Position numbers and translations under genes: made by a program. The notes below the pieces were generated by a model. That model did no database searches, was not told the DNA's origin, and saw nothing but the letters and a program-made list of their open reading frames with translations. A DNA stretch of 64,000 nucleotides from Pseudomonas caspiana (GTDB taxonomy: Bacteria; Pseudomonadota; Gammaproteobacteria; Pseudomonadales; Pseudomonadaceae): contig NZ_LOHF01000001.1 in NCBI RefSeq assembly GCF_002158995.1, positions 330,699-394,698 on the forward strand, given 5' to 3'. This document shows positions 28,629 through 46,328 of this stretch, one piece after another (the first letter of the stretch is position 1; each line of letters begins with the position of its first letter).

Positions 28629-29431
28629 ACCTTCGACACAAGCAGGACATGGCGTGCGGTCGATAGTCTTTGAGAGATTGCCATCGAAGAACTGCGACCG
28701 CGTGCTTTCATCATTTAGCACGCCGACCAGGGCCGACCAGGCAGGTTGGATCGCGATTGGCTGGCATCAGGTTTTCAGCTGTGGCCCTCCTTTAAAAATG
28801 GCCAAACGCTGAAGCCCGCGCAATCCGGGGCTCTCAGCGATTTTGACTTCTAAAGATGGCTGAAAACTCACCCGCCAAAGTGGATATAGCCATTTCCAAA
28901 AGAAAACCCCATCACCTAGTAAAACGAAGGTTCAACCGGACGCAGCTTGTTAAAACATTCGTCGCTTCGTCGTCAAGTCATTGATTTGATGTTGCTTTTT
29001 TTAAAAGTTAGGCCGTCTGTGTCTGGTAGATTCGAGCATTTATTGAAGTTTAGGATCGACCCATTTTCGGACGCCACGAGTGTCCGCTCGCCCAAGAGTG
29101 AGACAGGCGTTTTGATGTGATATCCGGAGGACGCAGTGGAGAAAAAACCGGCAGTATGAAGGCGAGCTTGATAACGGGAGTCATTTAAATGCCCTCCGTT
29201 TAGGAGATTTGCGCCGGAGGTTAATCGGCACCATGGTAAACCCGTTATGGCGGGGTTGAGCTCAAGCTAGGCTTGCCTAATGGCAGGTGTACAGCGGTTC
29301 TTGACCGTTCCATGGAGCTAAAAAATGGAGATTAGAGCCCCGTTCAGAGCTCGATACAGGAAATCCAATATATAGCTAAAATCCAATTATTCGTAGGATG
29401 GCTGGAATTCAGTGGCGGTAATCGCGATCAC
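28629..29431. other. ~800-bp non-coding stretch before the transposition module
   Basis: No frame here has family resemblance. It includes an inverted repeat GCGGTCG/CGACCGC (28656-28662 with 28695-28701) past the MFS stop and a stem GCTGA(G)AGCCC near 28809-28840. The remainder could be old chromosome or part of the mobile element. Confidence 0.45.
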
Positions 29432-29449
29432 TGTCATTTTTCTGTCGCG
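29432..29449. mobile_element. Candidate left terminal sequence of the Tn5053/Tn7-like element
   Basis: TGTCATTTTTCTGTCGCG begins with the TGTCATTTT seen at the ends of Tn402/Tn5053-type transposons and lies 377 bases before the transposase start, at the switch to AT-rich DNA. The five bases before it are ATCAC. No matching right end with the same target duplication was found, so the boundary is tentative. Confidence 0.35.
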
Positions 29450-29557
29450 CTTAGCTAATGAAAAAATGTGTAGCTTTTGGGTAAACACATGCAGTGTGGT
29501 TAAAGCACGCAGTTAAGCTGATTTAGTTTCACGTCAACTACCATTGTACATGAGTGA

Positions 29558-29576
29558 AATCGAACGAAATTCGATT
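29558..29576. promoter_or_regulatory. Inverted repeat in the tni promoter region
   Basis: AATCGAA-N5-TTCGATT has perfect 7-base arms, 233 bp before the transposase start in an AT-rich leader. It could be an operator for the transposition operon or a transposase-binding site. Confidence 0.4.
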
Positions 29577-29808
29577 AACACGATAATTGATATCCACTTT
29601 TGAAAAATTATAAACACTAACAAAGAAAAATAATTGGTCAGCATATTCAAGGGGAAATATCAGCTGGCTTGTTTTTTGCTCAAGAGATTCAATCAATTAT
29701 TTGTTAAATCGTAAGTGCAGAGCGACGGTTCTATGGCGGTTGCCAGGAGGGGCATTTTTAGAGGTAAGCTTTTGTGGATTTTTTAAACAACACCAAGGTC
29801 GAATCCAT

Positions 29809-31638
29809 ATGCTCCAACCCATCGTCGAAGGAAGCTTGGTTAGCTTTGAAGAGAAGGTATATCGAGTCGTTGAATGTGCGACTGACGGTACTGTGACTCT
29901 CCAGAGCCTCGAAACCCCACACACGTTTGACGTGCTTTTCACGCAGGTGACACTGGTCGAGACCGATCAGGCCAAACATGACCTGTACAATGACCGTCGC
30001 TTGGTGTGGATGGAGCAAACCGATGTTAACCCAAAGGAGTTGGCAATTGCTTCTGAGCGCGCTACGAATATCAATGACTACTTGAACGGTAAGATCTCTC
30101 GGCCACAACTGGTTGAAAAGTTCGGGTCGTCCGAGACGACTGCAAGGCGGCTACTGAAAAGGTATGACCCGGAACTTGGTGCCGTATCTTTGATTAGGAA
30201 TGTCCGAGGACGGAAGAAGAACTCCAGATTGCTTTCCGATATCCAAGAAAAGATAATAGAGAAGGCAATAACCAAGCGCCTCAAAGATAAAACAAAAAGG
30301 CTGGAAAATTTCACGGCTCTTTGGGAGTATGTTGATTCTCTCTGCCATGTCACGGGTGTGAAGACCCCTAGCGTCAATGCGGTGAAATCTCGCCTCGATT
30401 CTTTTGGGGTAAAAGCAGTCTATTCATTAAAGCACGGCAGGGAGGCCATGCTGCAGAAATTTGAATTGAAGCCAGGGATGATTGATGTTGATACCATACT
30501 GACGATGGTACAAATTGATCACACGCGTGTAGATATAATCATCGTCGATGCTCAAGGAAGAGCACTTATGCGACCCTGGCTCACCGTTGTGATTGACCTT
30601 AAAAGTCGCGTCCTCTTGGGTTACTATCTCGCGCTCCACCCACCCAGTGCGCTAAGTGTAGCGATGGCCATGCTATCAGCGTGCTTCCCGAAGCAAGAAT
30701 TCCCTATAACACTAGGGGGCGGTTTAAACACCCGGCACAGGTTTTGGGGAACGCCTAAAGCATTAGGGATGGACAATGCTGCCGAATTTACGAGTCCAGA
30801 GCTTGAAGCGACGCTTCAGTACTACAAAATCGAACCCCTGTTGCGCCCCATTGGGAAGAAACACTACGGAGGTCACGTCGAACGAATCATCGGTACCCTG
30901 ATGGGTAAGGTACATCTTCTGCCTGGTACAACATACTCTAATGTATTAGCAAAAGGGGACTACGACGCGGCGAAGCACTCTGGTATGACTTTTTCAGCAT
31001 TCTGTGAGTGGTTTGCGGGCGAGGTGGCTGTCTACCACGGACGGTCGCACGAGGGGTTGAACAGGCTCGCTCCATTTGAGGTCTGGGATGCAGAGATGGC
31101 GAAAAAGGGCCCAGACTATGTTCCCCCCATGGCAGGCAACTTCAAAACGTTCGCCTTCGATTTTTTCCCTAGTATCATCAGAACCGTACAGCCTAAAGGT
31201 GTAGAGTTTAGTAGGGCATTCTATTCCTCCGACATATTGCGGAGATATGTAGGTAAGCGGCTTTCCTTTAAATATAATCCATTAAATTTGTCGAAAATAT
31301 GGTTGCGACACGAAGGGCGATATCATGAGGTTCCCTATTCTGACCTTACGAGAACTCATTTCTCTCTGAGTGAATACTGGGCTCTTGGGCGACGCCGTGA
31401 TCGGCGACCAGGTACGTTAGTTGATGAGAGTCTGCATGAAGTTCGCTTAAAAAATTATGAGGTGATTGACGTCTCTGTATCTGAGACCAAACGTATTCGC
31501 CAAGAGGTCGCCAAGAAATCGACTACCGCTGAAACAATGTCGGTTCTATCATACGGCGCAGAGCAGCACTTACTTTCGGGGCCTTGTAAAGAGCCCAGCG
31601 CAGATCAAACTCGTAAAAAATTGTCGTGGGGGGACTGA
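29809..31638 (+). CDS. tniA: TniA/TnsB-type DDE transposase
   Basis: A protein of 609 residues from ATG 29809; a frame from a TTG at 29701 would add an unrelated leader. It is a Mu/Tn7-type integrase-fold transposase: N-terminal DNA-binding region (HTH-like KISRPQLVEKFGSSETTARR near residues 95-114), catalytic D237 (VQIDHTR), D322 (LGMDNAAEF) and E358 (GGHVERIIG), the last two 35 residues apart, and a C-terminal Mu-type beta-barrel (residues ~430-540). It joins the element's ends to target DNA. It is followed two bases later by the TniB gene. AT-rich compared with the flanking chromosome. No TnsA endonuclease is adjacent, so replicative cointegrate-forming transposition is expected. Confidence 0.9.
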   Translation: MLQPIVEGSLVSFEEKVYRVVECATDGTVTLQSLETPHTFDVLFTQVTLVETDQAKHDLYNDRRLVWMEQTDVNPKELAIASERATNINDYLNGKISRPQLVEKFGSSETTARRLLKRYDPELGAVSLIRNVRGRKKNSRLLSDIQEKIIEKAITKRLKDKTKRLENFTALWEYVDSLCHVTGVKTPSVNAVKSRLDSFGVKAVYSLKHGREAMLQKFELKPGMIDVDTILTMVQIDHTRVDIIIVDAQGRALMRPWLTVVIDLKSRVLLGYYLALHPPSALSVAMAMLSACFPKQEFPITLGGGLNTRHRFWGTPKALGMDNAAEFTSPELEATLQYYKIEPLLRPIGKKHYGGHVERIIGTLMGKVHLLPGTTYSNVLAKGDYDAAKHSGMTFSAFCEWFAGEVAVYHGRSHEGLNRLAPFEVWDAEMAKKGPDYVPPMAGNFKTFAFDFFPSIIRTVQPKGVEFSRAFYSSDILRRYVGKRLSFKYNPLNLSKIWLRHEGRYHEVPYSDLTRTHFSLSEYWALGRRRDRRPGTLVDESLHEVRLKNYEVIDVSVSETKRIRQEVAKKSTTAETMSVLSYGAEQHLLSGPCKEPSADQTRKKLSWGD

Positions 31639-31640
31639 TT

Positions 31641-32513
31641 ATGGATGGCGAACATTTGCATGAGAGTCGGCGTTATGCATTGGCTTTGTCAGATGAAGAG
31701 CGGTGCCAGATTATCCGGCAAGATATTAAGGTTGACACTGAGCATTTACTAACCGTTTCTAATATCGTGAATAACATGCTTAGCATAGTCCGAGGCAGCA
31801 TGGAGGCTCCGTGTCTTGTGGTTTCAGCCGCATCTAATCACGGCAAAACCACCATTTGCAACGCGGTAAGAGGTATGAACGAACCATGGCGCCATAAAAT
31901 TAGGTATGTGACGTTTGTCAAGGATACTGAAAAGACGAAGCCAATGGTTAAGCTTCTTACGGCTTTAGGCATGGATCCTGGCAGAGCCGGAATTCCAATT
32001 TCCATGGTGGCAGAATACTGCATTGCCAACGATATTCGTGGCGTGTTTATGGACGAGTTTCACGATGCTATCAAAGGCTTGCCGAAGGGTGAGCAAGACA
32101 CATTTCTCTCCCTCCTACGTGGTTTGTGCGGCCCGCCGGCCTACCTGAGCTTCTTTGCATTCGGAATCGAGGAGGCACTGAACGCACTCGCTTTGGATGC
32201 CCAATATGTCCGAAGGTTTGAGCTTTATGAGCTAACTCCATGGGCTAGGACGGATGCAGAATTCCTGAATTTTTTGGATACTTGGGAAGAAATCATGCCT
32301 CTTGCCCAGCGGTCACATCTTTCATCTAAGCCTATCGCCGATTTTATTTATTCCAACACCGCTGGTGTGATCGGCAATATTTGTAGCACTCTCCGTGCCG
32401 CTGCCTGCTTGGGCGTAATTTGGGGGGATGAGAAGATTACGCTTGAAAGTCTTCAAGCTGCAAAGCAGTCTAAATGGAACACCCGCATACGCCGGCCGGG
32501 TTTTACTGAATGA
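31641..32513 (+). CDS. tniB: TniB/TnsC-type AAA ATPase
   Basis: A protein of 290 residues from ATG 31641, with GGGGGA six bases before; an upstream GTG at 31626 overlaps the transposase stop. Walker A is ASNHGKTT (residues 64-71) and Walker B GVFMDEFHDA (D138, E139), followed by sensor-type residues in SFFAFGIEEALNAL and YVRRFELYEL. TniB/TnsC ATPases assemble on DNA and recruit the transposase to the target. It overlaps the next gene by 4 bp (ATGA). The next gene is a second, different ATPase, an unusual arrangement. Confidence 0.87.
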   Translation: MDGEHLHESRRYALALSDEERCQIIRQDIKVDTEHLLTVSNIVNNMLSIVRGSMEAPCLVVSAASNHGKTTICNAVRGMNEPWRHKIRYVTFVKDTEKTKPMVKLLTALGMDPGRAGIPISMVAEYCIANDIRGVFMDEFHDAIKGLPKGEQDTFLSLLRGLCGPPAYLSFFAFGIEEALNALALDAQYVRRFELYELTPWARTDAEFLNFLDTWEEIMPLAQRSHLSSKPIADFIYSNTAGVIGNICSTLRAAACLGVIWGDEKITLESLQAAKQSKWNTRIRRPGFTE

Positions 32514-33241
32514 AATATCTCTCGTGCCCTAAGCAGTTTCAAGCCAAACAGGCATTGGAATATAGTTTGGTTCGGAATAAGTTTACTGTTCTAGGTGGTG
32601 ATTCTAGGACTGGAAAAACCACGATTGCGAGGAAGTCTATCGTAGAACAGGACAGAACGAAATATTTTTCCGTTTACGTACCCGGTGCGTTCACTAAGTT
32701 ATACAGTGATATTTATGCATCTTTCGCTTCGGCGTTGAAGCTGCCACTGAATAGTCATTTTTTTAAGTTTCGGTGGATAGAGGACGCCCTTGAGGATATG
32801 ATTTGTGGCCGGGAGTTTCGGCTCGTGTTCGACGATGCCGGCATCCACTTCGGTGGGGGTGCAGTGCAGTTTAAAGCCTCCATGAGGCTGATGGAGCAGG
32901 TCATGGACAGATTTCCAAGTACAAAAGTATTATTTGTTGCCAATTTGGGTATTTTGGACAAAGCACTTAAGGGTGTTGGTGGTGATCAGATCTGTTACAT
33001 AAATATTGGAGTCTGGCAGGATGATCAGAAATACAGGGACTTCATGATACAAACAGGAGTTTCCTGTGGCTTTAAGCGCTTTCAGCTCGCTAACGATGAT
33101 TTTGCCAAGGAGCTATTGGTGAGATCGCATGGGGCCAGTGGAGCTATCATTCATATTTTACAAACATTGGCTAGGAATCCTGGCCTTAAGTCTTGCTCGC
33201 TCCTGTCCCGCGATTGCTTGCGTCACATCTGGAAGTTTTAG
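32510..33241 (+). CDS. Second, divergent TniB-like AAA ATPase
   Basis: A 243-residue protein. Walker A is GGDSRTGKTTIA (residues 29-40) and Walker B FRLVFDDAGIH (D108, D109); the second acidic residue is Asp, not the usual catalytic Glu, so hydrolysis may be slow or changed. The C-terminal half (LFVANLGILDKALKGVGGDQ, KRFQLANDDFAKELLVRSHG) is AAA-like. It shares little sequence with the TniB before it. The 4-bp ATGA overlap shows it is made with TniB. Possible roles are a heteromeric partner, a target-immunity factor or a target selector. AbaR/Tn6022-type elements also carry extra tni genes, but I cannot confirm homology by eye. Confidence 0.75.
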   Translation: MKYLSCPKQFQAKQALEYSLVRNKFTVLGGDSRTGKTTIARKSIVEQDRTKYFSVYVPGAFTKLYSDIYASFASALKLPLNSHFFKFRWIEDALEDMICGREFRLVFDDAGIHFGGGAVQFKASMRLMEQVMDRFPSTKVLFVANLGILDKALKGVGGDQICYINIGVWQDDQKYRDFMIQTGVSCGFKRFQLANDDFAKELLVRSHGASGAIIHILQTLARNPGLKSCSLLSRDCLRHIWKF

Positions 33242-33258
33242 GAAAGTGAGGCGCTAGA

Positions 33259-34320
33259 TTGTTTGACGATTTTTCATCAGGCACACCTCCACGCTTCCTT
33301 GTCGGGGAGACACTATATTCATGGGTGGTCAGAGGCCTAGTTCAAAATAAACTACGCAGCCCCCATCTGTTTCGTGCGGAAATTAATCTGGCGTTTAACG
33401 TCGATGACACTCGGTATGCTGGAACAATACAATCCTGGCCTCTGCCAGCATATGCAGATGTTGAATTTGATAGCGGTTCAAAACTTGGCGCATTGATATC
33501 GTCACTTTACGGCTTAGATGAGAAGGTGCTTTTTAGCTTTTTCTCTGCGAGTCAACCTAATTTGATCAATATCCACTTTCGGCATGCATACTGTTCTGCT
33601 TGTATAGTCCAAAGCATGGCCGATTATGGATTTCCTGTTTGGCGTAAAGACTGGTGCTATACAACAAATTCTTATTGTGTTGAGCATAAAAAGCTTTTTT
33701 CAAAGGTTAGATATCTTCAATCACCTGATAGGCGAATATGGGATGCTTATATTCATTCAGCGCGTGAGCGCAAGATGGAGGATTCGTTATTTGACCGACG
33801 ACTAGCCGGGATCATATTACGTGTTCAGAAGTGGATTAATGCGTTGGATGTGGAACACCCTTTTACGAAAGGGGTTCAGGCTCTTTACGGAGTTTTGCTT
33901 GCAAAGCGGACATCTTTTGCAGCGGGTGGGATAGCAGCCGCTGGATTCCATCAAGCGCAGCCGCCACTACTCAAGGAGAATCTCAATCTCGATCAACGTA
34001 TTGAACTAGGATTAAATGATAGTGAACCATCGCAGCGGATGGGGGCTTTGCTTTTGATTGGATGGCTTATCGGTATAGTATGTTCGTCTGAGATTGATTA
34101 TTTGAGTAGATTCGACTATAAAATACGTAGAACGCTGCCGTCGAGACCCGAACAATTTGCGCGGTTATTAATTTCAACTTTGGAGATGGATGAGGTGTCA
34201 GCCGTGCGCCACAAGCTATCCACGCTACATTATACTCCATTTAATAGGGTGTCTATTTTCTTAACCTCGTTGAATGCATCTACATCCAGTCCTTTAAACG
34301 CAGCGAAGAGAAAGCGCTAG
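33259..34320 (+). CDS. tniQ: TniQ-family transposition protein
   Basis: A protein of 353 residues from a TTG at 33259; an in-frame stop at 33247 excludes a longer start. The N terminus FLVGETLYSWVVRGLVQN and a zinc-binding site C112-x2-C115 ... C140-x2-H143 (AYCSACIVQS, SYCVEHKKLF) are the TniQ pattern. TniQ/TnsD proteins bind or recognise the target and link it to the ATPase. The C-terminal ~200 residues show no second zinc finger or HTH that I recognise. It starts 17 bp after the second ATPase and completes the tniA-tniB-ATPase-tniQ operon. Confidence 0.85.
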   Translation: MFDDFSSGTPPRFLVGETLYSWVVRGLVQNKLRSPHLFRAEINLAFNVDDTRYAGTIQSWPLPAYADVEFDSGSKLGALISSLYGLDEKVLFSFFSASQPNLINIHFRHAYCSACIVQSMADYGFPVWRKDWCYTTNSYCVEHKKLFSKVRYLQSPDRRIWDAYIHSARERKMEDSLFDRRLAGIILRVQKWINALDVEHPFTKGVQALYGVLLAKRTSFAAGGIAAAGFHQAQPPLLKENLNLDQRIELGLNDSEPSQRMGALLLIGWLIGIVCSSEIDYLSRFDYKIRRTLPSRPEQFARLLISTLEMDEVSAVRHKLSTLHYTPFNRVSIFLTSLNASTSSPLNAAKRKR

Positions 34321-34379
34321 TTTTATTGGTAGTCGATAAAACGTTTACAAAGGCCAATGACGGTATTACGGAGAAAGCT

Positions 34380-34892
34380 ATGCGGTTGAAAAAAAGTGGT
34401 GTTGTCGTCCCCTTGGTTGTTGGCGTCGTGATCAGCTTTACGTTTCTCATAATCCAAGGTCGTGTATTTGATGTCATCGCTTGGAACTACAACGTCTGTC
34501 ACGCGCTATTTGGATTTACCTTCCCGTTCTTCATGAGCTATTTCTCGTTCGAGCGTTCGGACATCAAGCGACTTGCCTTGACCCAGACGGTTGCTCGATT
34601 TTCGGCCACGCGCTGGTTTTTCTGGCCATTGGCGTTGATCCGCGCCATGGGACGCTCGATCGCACGTGACTTCCGTGAGGGTGTGAGTTGGAAACCTTTC
34701 GTTGGGGTCTGCTTCATCTTGGCAGCCTCGATGGCTAACGAGATGTGGATCGACCCCATTACTAACGGCATCCCATTTAGTCAGGCGTATGGGAATTTTG
34801 TTGCCGATGTGGTCGGCATGTTGGCGTTTCTGGCCGTTACCTATCCGTTCAGCCGCCGCCAGGCGCGACTACGAGCGTTGCATCTCGCTTGA
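34380..34892 (+). CDS. Small four-helix membrane protein of unknown function
   Basis: A protein of 170 residues from ATG 34380 (GGAG ten bases before); a TTG at 34326 is less likely. Hydrophobic segments lie at about residues 8-24, 36-53, 112-125 and 141-155, with an NEMWIDPITNGIPF loop. The spacing and the acidic loop before the last helix recall VanZ-like or related small membrane proteins, without a firm match. It follows tniQ by 59 bp on the same strand and is more GC-rich than the tni genes, so it is best seen as cargo or as the first gene beyond the transposition operon. Confidence 0.6.
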   Translation: MRLKKSGVVVPLVVGVVISFTFLIIQGRVFDVIAWNYNVCHALFGFTFPFFMSYFSFERSDIKRLALTQTVARFSATRWFFWPLALIRAMGRSIARDFREGVSWKPFVGVCFILAASMANEMWIDPITNGIPFSQAYGNFVADVVGMLAFLAVTYPFSRRQARLRALHLA

Positions 34893-34936
34893 GTTGCCCC
34901 TTGTTCTAACGCGTTCAAGAAAGCAGGGAAGGGCAT

Positions 34937-35050
34937 GGCAAGGGGTTATTTGCGTGCCCTTTCGGGTCGGCTGTTGTTAACGAATCTTAGCCGTCTGTGG
35001 CCGCCTTGGCCTGATGACTTCTATCCTCGCACCTGCGCGCTCCGCTTCAG
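34937..35050. repeat. Diverged intergenic repeat, copy A
   Basis: Aligns with 37883-37980: both run GGCAAG, GCGTGCCCTT, CGGG(T/C)CGGCTGT, then a TC(C/T)ATCCTC and GCGCTCCGCTT block, with a ~14-base insertion in this copy. It sits in the 424-bp gap between the membrane protein and the gene at 35317, where no gene is supported. Confidence 0.65.
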
Positions 35051-35316
35051 GAGCGGGCATCGCCCAAAAACTCTCAAGCACATACTGGAGAGGTCAGACA
35101 ACGGCCGGGGCGGCTCGTGGGCGGGTAGTCCTAAAGTGAATTGGGGGAGGCCAATGGCCTCGATGAGTTTCTCGCTGCGGGCAGTGAGGCCATCCTGCAT
35201 TGAATGCATGGCCGGTAGCCATTACTCTGGCTTGATCCGCACAGGAAATGGGTTCGGATGACTTAGGACGTTTGTACGCCAGAACCCGCGCGAAATAATT
35301 CAATAGGGATGACCCC

Positions 35317-35790
35317 ATGGCAAAGCTAACCATCACAGTAGAGGCAGATAAGGCCTCTGGTATCTCTAGCCTGCTTGAGTTGGCACTGGCGGAGTTGAAA
35401 CACAACAGTCACGGGCTCGTTGACTACGACAAGAGTATGGCTGGTCATCAGGCAGGAACTATGGGTAGCTATGATGTGCAGTACGAAGCCCCAGAGCGAG
35501 ATCGAAGCTGGTTTGGTTCGAGGGACAGCTTCGCTTCCAGCACTGCCGACGAGCCACGAACGCCCAAAACCGTGCCTGGATATGAGCACCCAGAGGGTTG
35601 GTTTGAGGACTCGATCCTGCTGATCGATGATCCTGCTCAACCTACGTTGAAAGAAGGTCAGCTGTTGAGCTACATGCGAGAAGTTCGTGGGCATCACATC
35701 TACGTCTTGCTCACAGACCAGGGTGTGACCACTGTCCCGCGCGAGCACCTCCAGCTTAAGCATCCCCGCGAGAACGTTCAAAACGCATAG
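35317..35790 (+). CDS. Hypothetical protein, acidic
   Basis: A 157-residue protein I do not recognise. The start MAKLTITVEADKASGISSLL followed by a Ser/Asp/Glu-rich middle (MGSYDVQYEAPERDRSW, DEPRTPKTVPGYEHPEGWFE) and a compact end (LLSYMREVRGHHIYVLLTDQ) suggests a small soluble protein with a flexible centre. There is no signal peptide and no Cys motif. It is followed after 39 bp by the permuted-papain-fold gene, so the two may be co-expressed. Confidence 0.6.
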   Translation: MAKLTITVEADKASGISSLLELALAELKHNSHGLVDYDKSMAGHQAGTMGSYDVQYEAPERDRSWFGSRDSFASSTADEPRTPKTVPGYEHPEGWFEDSILLIDDPAQPTLKEGQLLSYMREVRGHHIYVLLTDQGVTTVPREHLQLKHPRENVQNA

Positions 35791-35829
35791 ATTCCAGAAT
35801 TCAAAGGCAAAAGGCGGGCGGGGTAGGTG

Positions 35830-36954
35830 ATGGTGAAAACTGAAAGGAAATACATCTTGGAGCGATCACTCCTGCAGCGCGGGGACATCATTCTCACCGC
35901 TGAGAGCGAGGTCGTGAGTAAAGGAGTGCGCCTTTCAACCCTCTCCAAGTACTCCCATGCCGCCTTGTGGATAGGCGGAACATTGATCGAGGCAGTCAGA
36001 CCCGGGGTGTTCTCGAAAAGTGTCCAACGGCTCATTTTCGACAAACCCAGCCACTGTGCGGTCTACAGGAGTAGGGTGCCGCTAAGCGACGAGCAACTGG
36101 ACGTCATATGTCGTTATGCCCGGTCGCAGGTAGGGACTTTGTATGCCTTGGACGAAGCCATGATGGTCGCGCCCCGACGCCTAATGAAGATGGAATCCAC
36201 CAAGCGGCAATTCTGTTCGAGGCTGGTGGCATTGGCTTATGCGCAGATTGAGTACGACTTCATTAATTTGAAATCGCCACATTACTGCACGCCCCAAAAG
36301 CTCGCTCGTTGTAGCGCGTTTGAGCAAGTCAAAGGGCTGGTTCGACCAGCCGACGCGGGCGAGATTGCTTTTGCCCAGAGCTTTGATCCTATCAACAAAA
36401 ATGCGGTTGATACGTTTGAGTGGCTTGGGCTAGTCAGGAGTCTGGTGGAGTCAGATTCAGCGCTTAGGGGCAGCTTTGATATACAGTCAATTAGTGATGT
36501 GAATGGCTTGTTGTTAGCCCACCCCGAGCTTGATGGCGTCATCGTCGAGATGCTTCATCAGAACGATTACCTCACGTTCTATGACCATGATGCTCAGGCG
36601 AACCCTCATCGCTACGATGCAGCTTTATTTGCCGAAAGGCTCGGCATGGCGTTGGATCGTGAGGATTTCATCGCACAAGAACTCCAGAAAGAGTACACCC
36701 TCATCTCTCACCAGTCTGAAAACGTATGGGTATGCATCAATAATTTTTACCTGTCCCACCTAGGATTCACGCTGGAGCATCTGCTCCTCTATCGAAACAT
36801 CCTGGGCGAGTCATGGAAAACGCTTTCCACTCTCGCCGTAGTTTGCGAAGTCGTGGGTATGAACGAGTGGACAGACGAGGCTCGCCAGCTCATGCATAGC
36901 ATTCGGAGTTCCATGGATTCGGCGGATGAGGTTTTTGCCAAACAGTCGCAATAA
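35830..36954 (+). CDS. Permuted papain-fold (YiiX/NlpC-P60-like) hydrolase with extra C-terminal domain
   Basis: A protein of 374 residues from ATG 35830. The N-terminal half has the circularly permuted papain-like order: RGDIILT near residue 17, catalytic His H43 (KYSHAALWIGG) and, C-terminal to it, the nucleophile C129 (QFCSRLVALAYAQ). Such proteins are cysteine hydrolases acting on peptides, lipids or amide bonds. Residues ~170-374 form an extra domain without recognised motif (SIISD-, NGLLLAHPELDG- and LGFTLEHLLLYRNI-like helices). No signal peptide is seen, so action is probably cytosolic unless exported by another system. In an accessory island, an effector or defence role is possible but unproven. 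Confidence 0.72.
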   Translation: MVKTERKYILERSLLQRGDIILTAESEVVSKGVRLSTLSKYSHAALWIGGTLIEAVRPGVFSKSVQRLIFDKPSHCAVYRSRVPLSDEQLDVICRYARSQVGTLYALDEAMMVAPRRLMKMESTKRQFCSRLVALAYAQIEYDFINLKSPHYCTPQKLARCSAFEQVKGLVRPADAGEIAFAQSFDPINKNAVDTFEWLGLVRSLVESDSALRGSFDIQSISDVNGLLLAHPELDGVIVEMLHQNDYLTFYDHDAQANPHRYDAALFAERLGMALDREDFIAQELQKEYTLISHQSENVWVCINNFYLSHLGFTLEHLLLYRNILGESWKTLSTLAVVCEVVGMNEWTDEARQLMHSIRSSMDSADEVFAKQSQ

Positions 36955-37147
36955 GCCTTCACAATGCTCTCCGCGAGCGCCGGTTTCATCTCCGCGCACA
37001 TCAAGGCGGGAGCTGACCAGCCAGATAGCTCAGCACGTCCGAATTTCCCGCTCACTCATCCTTCGCAGAGGTAGGGGGGAGGGGGTATAGCGCTTGGTCT
37101 GCAGCGAATGCCTTAAGTGTCCCCGGGCGTAATCCACGGTTGGGTTG

Positions 37148-37516
37148 TTAAAGAGATTTTAGAAGTCGCTCGAATGTCTGATGCTCCCAGGTCGACATGA
37201 GCTCAACGGGGTCTGTACCAAATCGCTGGCTGCTGTCGAAACTCCACCGGCGACTGTCAGGAGCGATGCACGTTTCAACGTAATCAAGTGAATCACAATC
37301 GTTGTAAATCGACAGTCGCCAACCATCGACCTCCACCTCAAAATGGCTCGCGTAGACCTCGTCCCAGGTCTGACGGCCGATTCGCGTCATGACCCGCGTG
37401 CCCAAGGCGACATCCTTCAGGATCTGATACACCTCTCGCACTGGAAGAGTGTTTGCTGGTACTGGGTCGATGAGGGTATCTACCCATCCTTTGTCTGAAA
37501 GCGAATCGCTGCCCAT
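37148..37516 (-). CDS. Small hypothetical protein (DUF7693-like)
   Basis: A protein of 122 residues from ATG 37516 (AGGTGGAAGG before it); a TTG six codons upstream is possible. The segment LPVREVYQILKDVALGTRVM, then WDEVYASHFEVEVDGWRLSI and YNDCDSLDYVETC with APDSRRWSF, resembles a family of small cytosolic Pseudomonas proteins (from memory DUF7693; not verifiable here). Function unknown. It stands alone between the papain-fold gene and a 680-bp non-coding stretch. Confidence 0.6.
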   Translation of the reverse strand: MGSDSLSDKGWVDTLIDPVPANTLPVREVYQILKDVALGTRVMTRIGRQTWDEVYASHFEVEVDGWRLSIYNDCDSLDYVETCIAPDSRRWSFDSSQRFGTDPVELMSTWEHQTFERLLKSL

Positions 37517-38200
37517 GCCTTCCACCTGCTCCAATAGCGTCCGTTTTTGAGATTACCATCCCACCGTCGTGGTATCACTGAATCAGGTGCAATGGAAGGC
37601 GCTGAGGGCAATCCTCAGTAGTTGTCAGGCGTTGTTCTCTTCAGTGCCTAAAGCGCAGGAAAGGCCAATCAATACTGCATGACGTTCGAAGTCCGAACCG
37701 GGGAGCTACTGTTCCAAGTACGTTACGGTTTGGGTTTGAAGGCGAGCTTGGGCCTCAGGAAGGCATGTACGCATTATCGGGTCGGGCCCGCAGGGGATGT
37801 TTAAGGTGCGTCCTGGGCGGTTGAGCCCACGCGGACAAGCTTAGGTGGCCATATTGGTTTGGGGGGCGGCAACCTAGCTTTCGGCAAGAGATTTCCTCGC
37901 GTGCCCTTAGCGGGCCGGCTGTCGTGAACCAAGCTTGGCCATACGGGCTTCCATCCTCACGCCTGTGCGCTCCGCTTGCCGGGTGAGCGCAACGAAAGCC
38001 TATCCTCCGAGTAGGGCGATGTACGCTTCACCATGACCTCCATTCGTTTTGGCGACTAGGGAAAGGCACAGGTTGATCAGGAGGATGAGGGGTTTCCGAG
38101 GCTGGAGGCGGATCTTCGCGATCGCACAGCTTTGGGATGGAGTGCTGTGTCCAGGGCTGACGTGCGCAGCCGCCGCGCCCTGACTACCAGGGACTGTGTA
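37517..38200. other. 684-bp non-coding stretch
   Basis: No gene is supported. It is GC-rich and contains repeat copy B (37883-37980). The segment 37741-37870 has several short G-rich palindromic words but no frame with coding character. Confidence 0.5.
37883..37980. repeat. Diverged intergenic repeat, copy B
   Basis: The partner of 34937-35050. Roughly 70-75% of aligned positions look identical by eye, and the order of conserved words is the same. The two copies bracket the membrane-protein-to-DUF7693-like block, as a duplicated integration scar or mobile non-coding unit might. Confidence 0.65.
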
Positions 38201-38656
38201 TCAGTCAGCCCTAAAGCGATTCATGCTGTCGCGCAGTTTGCTGATCGACCGCTGCAATTGAATGAACTCCTCATCCGCCAGTCCTGTTGCCTCAGTGATG
38301 CTGAGTTCAGGGCAGGCTTCGCGTAATGATCGCCCTTGGCTGGTGAGGCTGACGAGAACACTCCGCTCATCCTCTAAGTCTCGTCGACGTGTCACATAGC
38401 CGGCCACTTCCAGCTTTTTCAGGATAGGCGTGAGTGTGTTCGATTCCAGAAATAGTCTTTCACCTAGCGCGCTGACAGTCAGTGCGTCGTGCTCCCAGAG
38501 AGCGACGATCGTTATGTACTGGGTATATGTCAGACCGAGTTTATCCAACACGGGCTTGTAGATTTTTCCGAACGCCAGGTTGGTGGAGTACACCGAAAAA
38601 CAAAGAAAATCGGAGAGGCTTTGGACAGGTGGGCCGGCCTTTTTCTTTGCTTTCAT
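38201..38656 (-). CDS. MarR-family regulator, OhrR-like
   Basis: A protein of 151 residues from ATG 38656, with AGAGGA before it. The N-terminal LSDFLCFSVYSTNLAFGKIY carries the single reactive Cys (C19) in the OhrR position, and YTQYITIVALWEHDALTVSA, LFLESNTLTPILKKLEVAGY and the wing RRRDLEDERSVLVSLT complete the winged helix. OhrR-type repressors release DNA when this Cys is oxidised by organic peroxides. The usual target gene ohr is not nearby; the divergent gene encodes a cupin instead. Palindromes ATCGCATGCGAT-like in both promoters are the likely operators. Confidence 0.87.
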   Translation of the reverse strand: MKAKKKAGPPVQSLSDFLCFSVYSTNLAFGKIYKPVLDKLGLTYTQYITIVALWEHDALTVSALGERLFLESNTLTPILKKLEVAGYVTRRRDLEDERSVLVSLTSQGRSLREACPELSITEATGLADEEFIQLQRSISKLRDSMNRFRAD

Positions 38657-38706
38657 GTGAATCCTCTCGATGTGAAGTGATCGATTTGCTAACCGATACT
38701 GTACAC

Positions 38707-38716
38707 CGCATGCGAT
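38707..38716. promoter_or_regulatory. Palindrome CGCATGCGAT in the MarR promoter
   Basis: CGCATGCGAT lies 51 bp before the MarR-type gene's start, within TACACCGCATGCGATCTAA. The same ten bases are at 38936-38945, before the cupin gene. Likely an autoregulatory operator. Confidence 0.6.
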
Positions 38717-38901
38717 CTAATCGGAAGCGTTGCTCCTTGCGCAGGAAGGGAGGCGCTTTGACCAAGGCTACCCCATCGCTCGACACAGTCTCTCCAGCTG
38801 GCCTTACCTGCTATGCAACTAAATCGTGAGGCATAGGTCAGCGCGGCCTTTTCGGATAAGCCTCCTAGGAGATATCTCAAAGGAAGATCCTAAAACTGTC
38901 C

Positions 38902-38960
38902 TTGACACATCGACAGGGATAAATCAGATTTAAATCGCATGCGATTCAAGCGCATGAGAT
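38902..38960 (+). promoter_or_regulatory. Cupin gene promoter with overlapping operator
   Basis: TTGACA at 38902-38907 is a strong -35. About 17 bases later are CAGATT/TAAAT as a -10 region. The perfect 12-bp palindrome ATCGCATGCGAT (38934-38945) starts just at the -10, and a half-site CGCATGAGAT follows at 38951-38960. Binding there would block transcription of the cupin gene. Confidence 0.6.
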
Positions 38961-38998
38961 GAAAAAGTCCGATAATCCAATCCATTAGAGGTATGTCT

Positions 38999-39313
38999 AT
39001 GATCCATCTGACTGAGTCCAAACGTAATTTTGAAAGCACTGAACACCCTGGTGTCAGCTTCCTCAGCATCTGGGGCGAGAACGGCGATGGTTCGGATATC
39101 GTTAAATTCTCAGCTGGCGCTCGTTTCCCACGGCACGATCATGAAGGCCGAGAGGAAATTCTCATGCTCTCGGGCCGTATCCGGTTCGGTGATCTGGTGT
39201 TGTCGGCGGGGGATTATCTGAAGCTCGGGCCTGGCGAAGAGCATGATGCCGTGGCATTGGAGGATTCGACGTTCTTCCTCTCCCATCAAGGCGGTTCGTT
39301 AATCCTTGAGTAG
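38999..39313 (+). CDS. Small cupin-domain protein
   Basis: A protein of 104 residues from ATG 38999, with GAGG seven bases before; the ATG at 38993 is too close to it. The single cupin barrel shows RFPRHDHEGREEILMLSGRI (metal ligands H, H, E) and GDYLKLGPGEEHDAVAL (final H), similar to ChrR-type cupins that react with or sense oxidants. It is divergent from the OhrR-like MarR gene with palindromes in the shared region, so a peroxide- or electrophile-inducible protective role is likely (inference). Confidence 0.83.
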   Translation: MIHLTESKRNFESTEHPGVSFLSIWGENGDGSDIVKFSAGARFPRHDHEGREEILMLSGRIRFGDLVLSAGDYLKLGPGEEHDAVALEDSTFFLSHQGGSLILE

Positions 39314-39375
39314 GGATTTTCATGTGGGAAGGAGGCAAATCGTGACGGAGAAGTGACCTTGCAAGGCAGATACAC

Positions 39376-39398
39376 CGCATGAGATAACATCTTATGCG
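39376..39398. promoter_or_regulatory. Third MarR-type operator candidate
   Basis: CGCATGAGAT-AAC-ATCTTATGCG is an inverted repeat with 9 of 10 arm positions paired. The left arm is identical to 38951-38960, and the flank TACACCGCATG matches the MarR promoter site. It sits at the start of a short frame (39399) after the cupin gene. Confidence 0.55.
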
Positions 39399-39581
39399 AT
39401 GTACCTGCATGGTTCCATTAGTGCGGTTTTGTTCGGAGCAATCGCCTTTTCCCATTGCGAATGCCAGGCCGCTCGGCATGAGATCGTTAAGGGCAGCAGT
39501 GGTTTGGCGACCGTAGACGGAGATCATCCTCAAGATTTGCTGCCGGAGCCGGTTGCGGAGTTTGGATCTTCGCTATTCTGA
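39399..39581 (+). CDS. Possible small exported protein or gene remnant
   Basis: A frame of 60 codons beginning MYLHGSISAVLFGAIAFSHC, whose first 24 residues resemble a signal peptide (ending CECQA). It starts right at the third operator-like palindrome. It has no clear ribosome binding site and no recognised family, so it may be the 5' remnant of a deleted MarR-controlled gene. The rest of 39314-39658 holds nothing else. Confidence 0.3.
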   Translation: MYLHGSISAVLFGAIAFSHCECQAARHEIVKGSSGLATVDGDHPQDLLPEPVAEFGSSLF

Positions 39582-39658
39582 CCTGGCAGGACGTGTGTGA
39601 AGTGCGCGCTTTTGGCGGCCCCTGAGCCCTTGCCGCCCCAGTCGTAGAGGAGATTTCG

Positions 39659-39943
39659 ATGAATGTTCGCGAGATGATTGAACTACTGTCCGCATTCGAC
39701 CCGACTGTCGAGTACGATGGTCAGTACCAAAAAGTCAAAGCTGTGCAAGCTCAGGTGATGTTGACTGACGGTGCATCCTGGGGCGATTACCAAGGCGCCG
39801 AAGCACTCAAAGTTAATCCGCTATACCCAGCGTCTGAAGAGGAGCAAGAGCTGAATGTTGCCAGCCCTCGGGAGGTAGTCGTCGCCATCTGGGGAAGCCT
39901 TCCTCCCAGTGGTTTAGGCGTGGATCCCAAGCGCAAAGGGTAG
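39659..39943 (+). CDS. Small hypothetical protein
   Basis: A 94-residue protein with a good ribosome binding site (GAGGAG six bases before the ATG). The sequence (MNVREMIELLSAFDPTVEYD, YQKVKAVQAQVMLTDGASWG, NVASPREVVVAIWGSLPPSG) is soluble and acidic with no motif I recognise. The opening VREMIELLSAFDP is like small proteins that summarise or scaffold, but this gives no function. It is convergent with the Xre regulator gene. Confidence 0.6.
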   Translation: MNVREMIELLSAFDPTVEYDGQYQKVKAVQAQVMLTDGASWGDYQGAEALKVNPLYPASEEEQELNVASPREVVVAIWGSLPPSGLGVDPKRKG

Positions 39944-40059
39944 TGGTAGCGATATCGCCACCAGCGGGCTAGGTCGAGCCCCTGGCATCGTCGAGTTTCA
40001 ATTTGGGGGATGTTGCGAGTCTGATAACGAGTACGCCCCGTACCCGAAGGTCTCATCAA

Positions 40060-40518
40060 TCAATCTTCTATGCGATGCCAATGCCGTCGAACACTTGACT
40101 CAGCCATGTTCAGGCGTCTCGCGATCTCTGCTTGGGTGTGGCCGGCCTCCTTTAACTCATGGACAGCCTCCCGCGCTTTGGCGGCGCTCGACACGCGTGG
40201 GTGGGGGTGGTTCTGAGGTGCGCTTTCGATGACCTGGTCAATGAGTCCCTGCTGGACGAGCTCTTCTTTAGCCAGGGCCAGGACTTCGGCGGGAGTCAAT
40301 TGCGAATGAGCCGAATACACAAGCGTCATGAATGCTACAGGATGCATTTCGAGGGCTTTGCAGAGGTCGTGCAGAGTGTCGGTGCTGACTGATGTACCTG
40401 CAGATTCGAGCAAGCTGATGTGGGACTGGGTGACGCTGGCACCGAAGGCTGATTGAGACATCCCACGAGCGCGACGGAGCAGCTGCAGCGCTGACGCAAG
40501 AGCTGTGCGTAAAGACAT
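40060..40518 (-). CDS. Xre-type regulator with second C-terminal HTH
   Basis: A protein of 152 residues from ATG 40518 (MSLRTALASALQLLRRARGM), with GGGGA immediately before; ATGs at 40527 and 40569 are weaker. An N-terminal HTH_3 domain (SQSAFGASVTQSHISLLESA, residues ~20-60) is followed by a linker and a C-terminal HTH (HTQAEIARRLNMAESSVRRH) like those of resolvases or sigma region 4. Two DNA-binding modules in one small protein suggest a regulator of an integrated element. No divergent partner gene is adjacent. Confidence 0.8.
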   Translation of the reverse strand: MSLRTALASALQLLRRARGMSQSAFGASVTQSHISLLESAGTSVSTDTLHDLCKALEMHPVAFMTLVYSAHSQLTPAEVLALAKEELVQQGLIDQVIESAPQNHPHPRVSSAAKAREAVHELKEAGHTQAEIARRLNMAESSVRRHWHRIED

Positions 40519-40919
40519 TTTCCCCATCCGTTCAAAACGAAAGGGTATGCCGCGTTTGCCTAACGCCATTCAAACCTATATATTCATTTCAACTGGCGGA
40601 TGCGGATGATTTTTGTGGCGGACACTCCGCTGATCACGTTGCGATGGGGCGTGATTCGTGGGGGCTAGCTGATGAGAGTCGGCTCACGCAATCAATATAG
40701 CCCTAAACCGAGGATAGCCAGGAACGCTTCGTCAAGCTGCCTGGCGAGAGGGGGAGAGGCCGCTTGATTCACAGCAAACCTGTTTGATAAAGGCAGTTAT
40801 CCAAATTGCTATCGGGCTGGCCCACCTCAAATTGATTGAATGACATGTCCTGGGCACCGAGCGTCCCCGGACTCTTAAACAAGTGAGCCCAGCGCACGGC
40901 CTGTGCTGCGGAGACATTG
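40519..40919. other. 401-bp gap between Xre and metallophosphoesterase genes
   Basis: No gene supported. It must contain the Xre promoter (minus strand) and the phosphoesterase promoter (plus strand). I see no clear palindrome shared between the two ends. Confidence 0.45.
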
Positions 40920-41648
40920 ATGAAAGTATTGATTTACTCAGATTTGCATAACGAATTTGATCGTTTTTCTCCTCCACCAGTGGATGTCGACTTGGTGGTG
41001 CTGGCGGGCGATATTGATGTGTTGGCCAGAGGTGTCGGCTGGGCGAACGAGACGTTCAAATCTGAGGTGATCTACTGCGGTGGCAACCATGAATATTACA
41101 AAGGCCACATTGACCGCACATTCGAAAAAATGAAAGCGGCTGCCGCCAGCCACGTGCACGTCCTTGAGAATGAAGTCTTTATAGCCGGCGATGTCCGGTT
41201 CCTCGTGGCGACTGCGTGGACTGACTTTGCGAGCACCGGGGACGTAGTCGCCGCGTCGAATGTTTGCGCGCGTGACATGAACGATTTTCGACAGATACGC
41301 GCAGGTAGCGGATATCGACGTTTGAGGCCCGTGGACATTATTGAGAGAAATCACGCGACGAAAGCATTTTTCACCCAAGAGCTCGCAAAGCCTTTTGACG
41401 GCAAAACCGTAGTCGTAAGTCATCACTGCCCGCTGCGTGAAGCGGCAGGGGACGAATACGATGGGCACATCAGCGCGGCTTACTACAACAATTGGCACAG
41501 CTTGGTTGATCAGGCGGATGCTTGGATTTTTGGACACACCCACAAATCGATCGACGCGGCCTTCGGAAATTGTCGAGTGATCTCCAATCCGAGAGGCTAC
41601 CCGGGTGAAGAAACCGGGTTCGAGCCCACAAAAATTTTGGAGGTTTGA
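40920..41648 (+). CDS. Calcineurin-like metallophosphoesterase
   Basis: A protein of 242 residues from ATG 40920 (GGAG six bases before). All five metal-binding blocks are present: SDLHNEF (D, H), LAGDID (D), GGNHEYY (N, H), VSHHCP (H) and GHTHKS (H, H). It should hydrolyse phosphodiesters or phosphomonoesters with two metal ions in the cytosol. The next gene starts one base past its stop, so it is co-translated with two or three small unknown proteins. That arrangement could be a nucleotide-signal or defence module, but there is no proof. Confidence 0.88.
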   Translation: MKVLIYSDLHNEFDRFSPPPVDVDLVVLAGDIDVLARGVGWANETFKSEVIYCGGNHEYYKGHIDRTFEKMKAAAASHVHVLENEVFIAGDVRFLVATAWTDFASTGDVVAASNVCARDMNDFRQIRAGSGYRRLRPVDIIERNHATKAFFTQELAKPFDGKTVVVSHHCPLREAAGDEYDGHISAAYYNNWHSLVDQADAWIFGHTHKSIDAAFGNCRVISNPRGYPGEETGFEPTKILEV

Positions 41649-41649
41649 T

Positions 41650-41955
41650 GTGTCCAAATTTGGCGAAAAGGTCGTGCAGGAAGCTGGCTCAATACCTCCA
41701 GCTGTTGTTGCGGCGAGTAACGAGCAATGGGGTGTGGCGATTGACGCCTATCTGGTCGATGCTGTCCGAGTGGGAAACCGCTTCGCAGCCACCGCGTACT
41801 TTGACCTTTCAGGCTGTATTGACGATGGGTCAACGGTCGCCACGCCACCGGTGAGAGCCGTTGAGCGTCGAGAGAGCTTTGTTCTGCTCCAGACATTATG
41901 CGGGAGCGATTATTACGTTATCGCCGCGAGTAGGTCGGACGGGACGGAAGTGTGA
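41650..41955 (+). CDS. Small unknown protein 1 of a three-gene set
   Basis: A protein of 101 residues from a GTG at 41650, with TTGGAGG six to seven bases before and overlapping the end of the phosphoesterase gene region. I do not recognise a family. Its C-terminal part (VATPPVRAVERRESFVLLQT, then GSDYYVIAAS) follows the same pattern as the next two small proteins: a [T/S]-x-[V/L] strand, a hydrophobic strand, a T/L-rich segment and GS-x2-YV. It overlaps the following gene by 4 bp (GTGA). Confidence 0.6.
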   Translation: MSKFGEKVVQEAGSIPPAVVAASNEQWGVAIDAYLVDAVRVGNRFAATAYFDLSGCIDDGSTVATPPVRAVERRESFVLLQTLCGSDYYVIAASRSDGTEV

Positions 41956-42266
41956 GCTATCGAGATGAGGTGCCGAGCCCTGTGATAGAAGCCACCCAGG
42001 TCAAGTTTGAGCTACCGATCACCGCGATTCTTTACCTGCCAGAGATCGAGGGATTCAGCTTGGTCGGTAACATTTTCAATGACTCGCTCGGGCAGTTCGC
42101 GGACTGGCGACTCATTCGCACGTCCACTGTCGTCGAGTTTTCTGAATGTTCGGGTTACACCATCGCTTCGACATTTTCGGGGAGTCGTTACGCACTCGTC
42201 TCGGCGACGGGAGCTGACGTTCAGACGCTTTTGGGAGGCAGCCTCTTTGTAGTTAGCAGTGATTGA
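41952..42266 (+). CDS. Small unknown protein 2 of a three-gene set
   Basis: A protein of 104 residues from a GTG at 41952 overlapping the previous stop. The C-terminal half reads DWRLIRTSTVVEFSECSGYT, then FSGSRYALVSATGAD, which aligns by eye with the neighbours at 41650 and 42458. It has an acidic, soluble N terminus. Tight coupling to gene 1 and to the metallophosphoesterase suggests one transcription unit. Confidence 0.6.
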   Translation: MSYRDEVPSPVIEATQVKFELPITAILYLPEIEGFSLVGNIFNDSLGQFADWRLIRTSTVVEFSECSGYTIASTFSGSRYALVSATGADVQTLLGGSLFVVSSD

Positions 42267-42457
42267 TGAAGCCAGTAGCTCATAGGCTTTGGGACAGGCT
42301 GTAAAACGTTGAGAGGTCTGATTACGCCCTATCGAATCCATAAAAACACGGACGAGGGGGGCATGGCTGCACTGTTCAGTAGTGAGGCCGTTGCCTACCT
42401 CTGGCCACGACTTCAGCACAGAAACGCGATCCCGGCCAACCTAGGAGATGTTGCTTC

Positions 42458-42847
42458 ATGCAGGACTTTGACTTCAGGCAAATGATCGGCCCTAGCGAAG
42501 TGATGTGCGGTGCTCAGCTTGGGCTGGAGGAAGCGATTGCGGTCACGGAGGAGCGCTTTCCCGGTATCAGTTTTTGCATCTTGGACGAGTGGGTATGGGT
42601 GGACTTCGATGCGCCTGATCTTGTAATCGATGAGCTGGCTACGCAGGGGAAGAAGCCAACAATGCTGCTCGCTTTTCGGGTGCTATTCGATAGCACAACC
42701 AATGACATTTCTCACTGGTTCCGGTCGACGCCGCTGATGCAATTCTCGGACGGCATGTTTTTTCTAACTGGGAGCAAGCTGTATGTGCTCCTAGGCAATG
42801 GCCGAAAGACATCGATGTCTCTTTCGACTCTGGTACGGATGTTTTGA
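42458..42847 (+). CDS. Small unknown protein 3 of a three-gene set
   Basis: A 129-residue protein with AGGAGA about ten bases before the ATG. N-terminal half: GAQLGLEEAIAVTEERFPGI and WVWVDFDAPDLVIDEL. The C-terminal half (HWFRSTPLMQFSDGMFFLTG, then SKLYVLLGNGRKTSMSLSTL) shows the same strand pattern as the two upstream proteins. From memory it resembles the DUF6957 group of Pseudomonas proteins; that is unverified and no function is implied. A 191-bp gap separates it from gene 2. Confidence 0.6.
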   Translation: MQDFDFRQMIGPSEVMCGAQLGLEEAIAVTEERFPGISFCILDEWVWVDFDAPDLVIDELATQGKKPTMLLAFRVLFDSTTNDISHWFRSTPLMQFSDGMFFLTGSKLYVLLGNGRKTSMSLSTLVRMF

Positions 42848-42945
42848 ATGACTAGCTGCGGCCGGCCATACATTGATGCCTCGCTAACGCAAAGCGCGGG
42901 CATGGGTATGACGTTGAGACAGCAGATTAAGTGGAGACTTTTCCA

Positions 42946-43590: not shown

Positions 43591-43848
43591 GCGGCGCGAT
43601 ACGACTTTCTAGATCAAAGCGAACCCATTTTCAGCAGGCCTGCGGCAATCTTGGTTGGGCACGCAAACGTGCGACCAGTTACGAGTGGCGGTCTTCAACC
43701 CAAATCAGCCACTAACTGCCTCCATCGTCCGTATGGCTGGGCTGGAAGGTCAGGTGATAGGCACGTCGGTTGAGCGCTATTACAACCGCCGACAGGCCAA
43801 CTGTTCACCACCCTGGTGCATCCTTAGAGTTCACGGGCAGTGGCTCAT

Positions 43849-45025: not shown

Positions 45026-45120
45026 TAAGCGGCCCTCTCACTCGGTACAACGTCATTCTACATCACTCCGAGATTTTTGGTGCCACTACGCTCCTAACGC
45101 GTCTCGGCCGCAGAACGCAT

Positions 45121-46002: not shown

Positions 46003-46029
46003 AAGAGGTGCCTTCTGCTCATCGGTAGC

Positions 46030-46284: not shown

Positions 46285-46328
46285 CCGAACGAACACGGCA
46301 CTGAGCCAGTGCACCCTATTCGTAGTGA

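Follow-up and report, generated by a model that had tools for sequence, protein, structure and literature searches.

A Tn7-like transposon family of Pseudomonas with a second AAA+ gene in its transposition operon lies beside the chromosomal dif site

Results

A four-gene transposition operon with two dissimilar ATPases

The window analyzed here, a 64,000-bp stretch of the Pseudomonas caspiana genome (GCF_002158995.1, contig NZ_LOHF01000001.1, positions 330,699 to 394,698), contains a tightly packed transposition operon, tniA-tniB-ATPase2-tniQ, in which two AAA+ proteins are encoded between a transposase and a short target-selection protein. The operon belongs to a Tn7-like element whose far end lies beside the chromosomal dif site, both in this genome and in five others that carry the same four genes. 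Open reading frames and Pfam searches bear out all four genes proposed in the initial annotation, and the spacings it gave (a 2-bp gap, a 4-bp overlap and a 17-bp gap) match the coordinates found:

29809..31638, + strand: tniA, TnsB-like DDE transposase, 609 amino acids (Mu-transpos_C, E 4e-10; rve, E 1e-4)
31641..32513, + strand: tniB, TnsC-like AAA+ ATPase, 290 amino acids (Pfam TniB, E 3e-12; Walker A, DE Walker B, RRF motif)
32510..33241, + strand: ATPase2, second TnsC/Orc-type AAA+ protein, 243 amino acids (Walker A GDSRTGKT, Walker B FDD, no RR[FY])
33259..34320, + strand: tniQ, short target-selection protein, 353 amino acids, TTG start (Pfam TniQ, E 2e-8)

The operon is not a chance arrangement, because the identical gene order recurs in five further genomes. 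The six elements compared below are those of the window genome, G182 (locus L005), G725 (L036), G779 (L008, Pseudomonas sp. GM79), G780 (L009, Au-Pse12) and G781 (L010, P. bubulae). The difference noted earlier between the two ATPases holds in all six, with FMDE as the Walker B motif of TniB and FDD as that of ATPase2. The sole Pfam match of ATPase2 is AAA_22, at an E value of 3e-4 that falls under the Pfam cut-off. The ATPase2 family is rare: its profile was found in 3 of 398 genus genomes, the window's own included, and a class-wide search with the single ATPase2 protein found it in 1 of 369, that one being the window's own. ATPase2 had no match among 72,556 plasmid records, in a first scan of genome contigs or in PADLOC, and TniA had none in viral contigs. 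The proposed lack of TnsA stands for the operon itself; genome-wide, the TnsA model PF08722 also gave no hit, but this is a weak test, as the same model was silent in 14/14 control genomes.

True ends and size of the element

The tni-side end of the element lies at position 28780 (5'-TGTGGCCCTCC), as aligned in the six elements. The common block upstream of tniA starts abruptly at 5'-TGTGG in every one of them, and the flanks outside it are unlike:

28780..28867, + strand: tni-proximal transposon end, 5'-TGTGGCCCTCCTTTAAAA, aligned in six elements, with two TnsB-type repeats
28775..28779, no strand: target-site duplication (TSD) TCAGC, proximal copy; the second copy follows directly after window-coordinate 89112

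The two 23-bp repeats are located at +8 and +65 of this end (28788-28810 and 28845-28867) and resemble the arrayed transposase sites typical of Tn7 relatives (PMC8649781, cited here, like the other papers below, from part of its text). Beyond the end, the elements share just short matches of 28-35 bp, except L010 and G725, whose chromosomal neighborhood is common again from 0.7-0.9 kb outward. Position 29432 (TGTCATTTTTC), the left boundary in the initial annotation, is rejected as an end: it is internal, has no partner in the window and is not common as an end in the six elements.

Reading the chromosome past the window places the partner end, inverted, at window-coordinate 89112. The element measures 60,333 bp (C1:359478-419810) and extends 25.1 kb past the window. 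Its TGT...ACA ends with subterminal repeats and a 5-bp target duplication, its TnsB-like DDE transposase with a Mu C-terminal domain, and the presence in the operon of a TnsC/TniB AAA+ regulator together with TniQ identify it as Tn7-like and agree with the Tn5053-type, TnsA-less branch, apart from the lack of TnsA, for which the test above is weak. The corresponding elements span 92,250 bp in G725, 88,794 bp in G182, 62,624 bp in G781 and 35,983 bp in G780, the last two lengths taking G781:C1 for the contig of L010 and G780:C11 for that of L009. The G779 element is split over two contigs, and the range of 36-92 kb used below covers the other five. The initial annotation had missed these ends and this size, as well as the dif target.

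Insertion beside dif

Most circular bacterial chromosomes have a single dif site, which serves chromosome separation and to which host recombinases bind. When the DNA outside the far end was used as a query, matches were obtained in 88/119 genus genomes, mostly through a motif of ~24-45 bases. This motif is the dif site, GGTACGCATAATGTATATTATGTTAAAT; its name and its XerC and XerD arms agree with the sites printed in PMC10132070. A pattern scan allowing up to 2 mismatches found one dif-like site in each of 12 genomes. The 5 bases outside each tni-proximal end were then sought beside an inverted end near the dif site of the same genome, and a matching TSD with an inverted end was present near dif for 6/6 elements. 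In all of them the far end lies 72-130 bp from dif (counted from the final base of the element to the 28-base site), on the side of the XerC arm and in a single orientation:

Window genome: 96 bp from dif, TSD TCAGC, XerC-arm side
G725: 120 bp from dif, TSD GCATG, XerC-arm side
G182: 123 bp from dif, TSD CTGTG, XerC-arm side
G781/L010: 72 bp from dif, TSD TGGTC, XerC-arm side
G780/L009: 104 bp from dif, TSD CCGGG, XerC-arm side
G779/L008: 130 bp from dif, TSD TCGGC, XerC-arm side

Each combination of TSD and end occurs once in the 3-kb dif locus of its own genome and in 0/30 mismatched TSD-locus pairs, and shuffled dif loci gave such a match in 9-19 of 1000. Of 38 consensus positions, the far ends match 31-37, compared with 17-21 in 18 further dif loci; as these ends are the source of the consensus, the comparison carries supporting weight only.

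An empty site corresponds to the G779 element. Joined with one copy of the TSD, its flanks align unbroken through the junction into dif with the dif locus of G783, which is uninterrupted there (69% over 591 columns, E 6e-67). Because the joined flanks align continuously with this locus, the G779 insertion point adjoined dif before insertion. No empty site was found for the other five elements in the dif loci examined, where their joined flanks matched just around the dif core, with the exception of 377 bp of the G780 left flank, which match L061 ~0.47 kb from its dif. The elements of G725 and G781 are 99.9% identical over 9.9 kb, and their four proteins round to 100% identity; they occupy a common chromosomal region with differing TSDs and spacings (120 versus 72 bp). 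Since near-identical elements carry different duplications at different distances, their sequences point to separate recent insertions.

These observations bear on two explanations in which the tni machinery does not choose dif. Elements that exploit XerC/D at dif are well known, and the element of the window itself carries an XerC-like recombinase; the islands might thus have reached dif by XerC/D site-specific integration, with the tni genes as passengers. Such integration would recombine within dif, whereas the insertions show perfect 5-bp duplications and paired TGT/ACA ends 72-130 bp away from the single dif-like site of each genome, so that this route is largely refuted already and highly improbable. 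Random insertion, with the terminus as a tolerant place where survivors are seen, has even less in its favor: the surroundings of dif are indeed variable and hold recombinase gene pieces of other origin, but all six elements are found no more than 130 bp from dif, with the same side and the same orientation, and by our own estimate an end would fall that close by chance about once in 10,000 per element in a 6-Mb genome.

In G182, an XerC-like recombinase gene (L005:15674-16978) is situated 764 bp beyond the tni-proximal end, a hint of stacked insertions at dif. The dif loci of G786 and G787 (L070, L072) share one element-like end (TGTCAGCAACC), located on the XerC side at ~28-48 bp from dif; no partner end with a matching duplication was found for it.

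Relatives without ATPase2

Of the 20 loci found, L008-L010 belong to the six elements described above, L019-L023 and L027 are not Pseudomonadaceae and were left out, and L024 had no dif-like match at 3 mismatches. The comparison covers the ten further Pseudomonadaceae loci, with 34-40% TniA identity; one of these ten, L018, has a contig that starts inside tniA and was not counted as dif-adjacent. An insertion was accepted on an exact common 5-bp duplication located next to a TGT within 4 kb upstream of tniA and again within 1.4 kb on either side of dif; the score counts matches over 25 bases of the two ends, and the null is given by the dif loci of other genomes. By this test, 6/10 relatives are dif-adjacent, at 28-44 bp. 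Five of these (L012, L014, L015, L016 and L017; 16-21/25 matches, null ≤15) have TniB and TniQ only and, with both ends readable, all sit on the XerD side, 28-44 bp from dif and opposite to the ATPase2 elements. For L015 and L017, it is the spacing of the matches that indicates that no gene separates tniB from tniQ; L016 and L017 score alike in that comparison, yet their duplications differ. The sixth, L013, has two TniQs and no second ATPase and lies on the XerC side, 40 bp from dif (21/25 matches, null ≤13). Its two tniQ genes are in tandem (L013:12452-14484).

The same test gave best scores of 10/25 for L011 and 11/25 for L026, both within the null, and no match for L025. In L011 (12524-13372), L025 and L026 (12735-13580), a different AAA-like protein of 281-282 amino acids is encoded between tniB and tniQ. 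It has C or V in place of the Walker A lysine, lacks RR[FY], and gives no clear match to ATPase2 in a profile comparison (probability 3.4%, E 0.013). In both L025 and L026, tniA is divided between two reading frames, with the break at an identical position.

In a tree of TniA, the ATPase2 elements group in a single clade (100/100 for the five rows included), and G725 is near-identical to L010. This tree was built without L017, L026, L027 and G725, takes the C-terminal reading frame of L025 as is, and carries a long-branch warning. Because six relatives without ATPase2 also sit at dif, dif targeting is independent of this protein, and it is probably older. The spacing ranges do not overlap, with 72-130 bp for the ATPase2 elements and 28-44 bp for the other six. 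The link of ATPase2 with the XerC side and the long spacing could be inherited and not causal, because the groups compared are clades.

Sequence and predicted structure of ATPase2

Structurally, an AlphaFold2 model of ATPase2 built from five sequences (predicted local distance difference test score, pLDDT, 84; predicted template modeling score 0.73) shows an AAA+ core plus a lid. The best structures in VIA-align are tied: ShTnsC of the type V-K CRISPR-associated transposon (7plh, Z 15.8), type I-B TnsC (15.6) and archaeal Cdc6/Orc1 (15.5). The superposition on 7plh covers 223 residues at a root-mean-square deviation of 4.6, with 15% identity in the structural alignment. The model thus predicts a TnsC/initiator-type fold, which is no proof of TnsC descent. 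A comparison of ATPase2 with PDB sequences gave two hits, at E 0.37, and a profile search none. The alternative named in the initial annotation, that ATPase2 is a plain tniB duplicate, fails on a profile comparison with TniB (probability 0.6%), so no duplicate is detectable.

In 6/6 copies of ATPase2, Walker A is intact, Walker B reads FDD without the catalytic glutamate, and no RR[FY] motif follows the fourth strand; in these motifs the protein departs from the TnsC family. By comparison, TniB keeps Walker A, DE and RR[FY] in 13/13 sequences examined (six of this family and seven of relatives). ShTnsC and other TnsC/MuB proteins are the nearest known systems in the predicted fold of ATPase2. 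TniB matches ShTnsC by sequence (E 2.6e-4); its own structure model has a pLDDT of 33. The second R of its RR[FY] motif aligns with ShTnsC R189, by our own count on the alignment. We take this motif to be the arginine finger of TniB, a reading of our own made from the sequence. The general role of the arginine-finger residue has been described for IstB (PMC11208146).

ATPase2 diverges at the pace of TniQ, faster than TniA and TniB. Over 14 pairs (L010/G725 left out; 10 of the pairs are free of repeats of these two), identity is 47-75% for ATPase2 and 49-75% for TniQ, against 80-96% for TniA and 82-94% for TniB, and ATPase2 directly precedes tniQ in 6/6 elements. Among the roles suggested for it earlier (mixed filaments, target choice or immunity), target choice is favored, because the gene is the neighbor of tniQ, diverges like it, and tracks one side of dif and one range of spacing; mixed filaments are a further possibility. 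It is nevertheless conceivable that TniQ, or TniA, finds dif alone, with ATPase2 as an accessory (an immunity factor, filament cap or regulator) and its link to side and spacing a phylogenetic coincidence. The five relatives with TniB and TniQ only and the one with two TniQs reach dif as well, and the six ATPase2 elements, as a single TniA clade, are not independent observations of side and spacing. However, the constant position of ATPase2 before tniQ, its divergence at the pace of TniQ and not of the core, and the lack of overlap between the two spacing ranges make this explanation unlikely, though a serious competitor.

A tyrosine recombinase gene near the dif-facing end

A homologue of XerC-like tyrosine recombinases is encoded within ~1.7 kb of the dif-facing end in 6/6 ATPase2 elements, and also in 3/3 others tested (L013, L016 and L014). 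The copy of the window genome matches the XerC model TIGR02224 at E 3e-11, with a score of 43 bits that falls well short of the equivalog cut-off (335). The 474-amino-acid copy keeps the recombinase motifs, as judged by eye. No serine resolvase was found in the element: the three PF00239 hits of the genome are on C8 and C24, outside C1:359478-419810 (the model hit 10/14 controls).

Given its position and conservation, this recombinase might itself be the dif-binding selector in place of TniQ and ATPase2, just as TnsF, which resembles tyrosine recombinases, serves Tn6022 (PMC10293859). This is rather improbable, though a live alternative for which the match of the window genome's copy to XerC models speaks, because the gene lies far from the tni operon and the motifs of the 474-amino-acid copy fit a role in resolving cointegrates. 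Elements that lack tnsA would be expected to carry a resolvase, an argument made in PMC8649781 for the branches without this gene.

At L039, two tyrosine recombinase-like genes adjoin just inside the dif-facing end (1570-2808 and 2837-4261). The one of 412 amino acids, for which neither Pfam nor NCBIfam gave a hit, is possibly degenerate. Across dif, broken pieces of a third recombinase gene (L039:5629-6310) are likely a remnant of an earlier insertion.

Proposed mechanism

The operon is probably the transposition module of a Tn7-like family of Pseudomonas in which TniQ and ATPase2 together act as the target module at dif, with ATPase2 setting side and spacing. TniA would join the element ends to the target, and TniB would be the hydrolyzing, TnsC-like activator whose oligomer recruits TniA. 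TniQ would read the target, most likely dif occupied by a Xer recombinase, by analogy with two known groups: res hunters sense resolvase-bound res, according to the title of a 1999 paper cited in PMC8649781 and to PMC7765201, and IS1202 elements are proposed to touch XerC (PMC10132070). ATPase2 may be an ATP-binding, poorly hydrolyzing subunit of TnsC fold, and we infer for it the role of a static AAA+ adaptor between TniQ and TniB that could set the side of dif and the longer spacing. Transposition is probably replicative, because no TnsA was found, and the XerC-like recombinase inside the dif-facing end probably resolves cointegrates. A more specific proposal, that a finger-less TnsC-fold subunit reads XerC/XerD on dif together with TniQ and thereby fixes the side and distance of insertion, is possible but short of probable. 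If true, side and spacing would form a swappable module, since the related TniQ-only core lands on the opposite side.

Several points weigh against assigning target choice to ATPase2. Its role is derived from a correlation within clades, and TniQ or TniA by itself could account for side and spacing; L013, with dual TniQ and no ATPase2, likewise lies on the XerC side, 40 bp from dif. No dif insertion was accepted for L011, L025 and L026, the three relatives whose second AAA protein is of another kind. The Z-scores tie TnsC with Cdc6/Orc, and the first Foldseek hits of ATPase2 are p97 and then MuB. The fast divergence of ATPase2 could reflect relaxed constraint, it is the sequence alone that suggests that hydrolysis and the arginine finger are lost, and the involvement of Xer proteins in targeting is putative.

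Comparison with known systems

The initial annotation had tentatively likened the extra gene to those of AbaR/Tn6022-like islands. The two systems are alike in being Tn7-like, with a short TniQ and an extra operonic target gene, but the extra gene of Tn6022, tniE, is TnsF, a tyrosine-recombinase-like selector and not an ATPase, TnsA is present, and the target is comM (PMC10293859). Here, the extra gene encodes an AAA+ protein and the target is dif. An AbaR/Tn6022 origin is thus rejected on the published description (PMC10293859), as opposed to an alignment of AbaR proteins.

The element also differs from the Tn5053/Tn402 res hunters in its TGTGG ends, its extra ATPase, its length of 36-92 kb and the lack of a detected serine resolvase. 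The ends of Tn5053/Tn402 begin with TGTCA. That family targets res, whereas 6/6 insertions here are at chromosomal dif, which places the element outside it. The likenesses are a transposase, TniB and TniQ, 5-bp duplications, subterminal repeats, and insertion at a recombination site in a typical orientation (PMC7765201, PMC8649781); tnsA-less branches exist in the Tn5053/Tn402 clade (PMC8649781).

With the IS1202/ISAjo2 dif hunters, the element shares a TnsB-like transposase, TGT/ACA ends, 5-bp duplications and a fixed XerC-side orientation (PMC10132070). Those are single-gene insertion sequences of 1.5 kb that lie 5 bp from the XerC site and have no TniB, ATPase2 or TniQ (PMC10132070). Unlike them, the element described here has a four-gene operon, a length of 36-92 kb and a distance of 72-130 bp, and so does not belong to that family.

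Single-gene dif hunters (PMC10132070) and multi-gene res hunters (PMC7765201, PMC8649781) are already known. Among the matches listed in searches of an open-licence library, which lacks most subscription papers and preprints, none showed a Tn7-like transposon of several genes at dif or a comparable second AAA+ gene; the parts of PMC8373256, PMC3056050, PMC12907356 and PMC8987985 that were available describe no such system. A survey of 80,028 loci marks, in a figure legend, loci with 'an additional distinct tnsC' (PMC10293859), and such elements may be among its data. A large Tn7-like element that inserts beside dif and leaves it undamaged would make dif a novel type of landing site, both safe and broadly available, and would carry res hunting (Tn5053) and single-gene dif hunting (IS1202) over to transposons of several genes whose cargo runs to tens of kilobases. 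ATPase2 opens a direct approach to how side and spacing of insertion are determined in Tn7-like systems, an issue that also concerns CRISPR-associated transposons.

Cargo and a second module in the same genome

The remainder of the element within the window is cargo:

34321..64000, no strand: cargo, the window genes from 34.3 kb on, running on to the dif-facing end

Eleven cargo genes were assigned by Pfam, to metallophosphatase, HAD, Fic, transporters, SMP-30, CoA-transferase, OprD and others. The Fic-domain protein (44010-44753) matches the PADLOC candidate defence family PDC-S04 (E 2e-28). A transporter-like gene at 46329-47658, assigned by eye to the major facilitator superfamily, is split over two overlapping frames.

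The window genome also contains a second, unrelated Tn7-like module at ~37-44 kb of G000:C16 (L006:5614-12077). It encodes a TnsD-sized TniQ protein of 830 amino acids, an ATPase-like protein of 400 and a transposase of 630, preceded by a 293-amino-acid protein that may be TnsA and followed by a DNA methyltransferase-like gene; all names except TniQ and transposase were given by eye.

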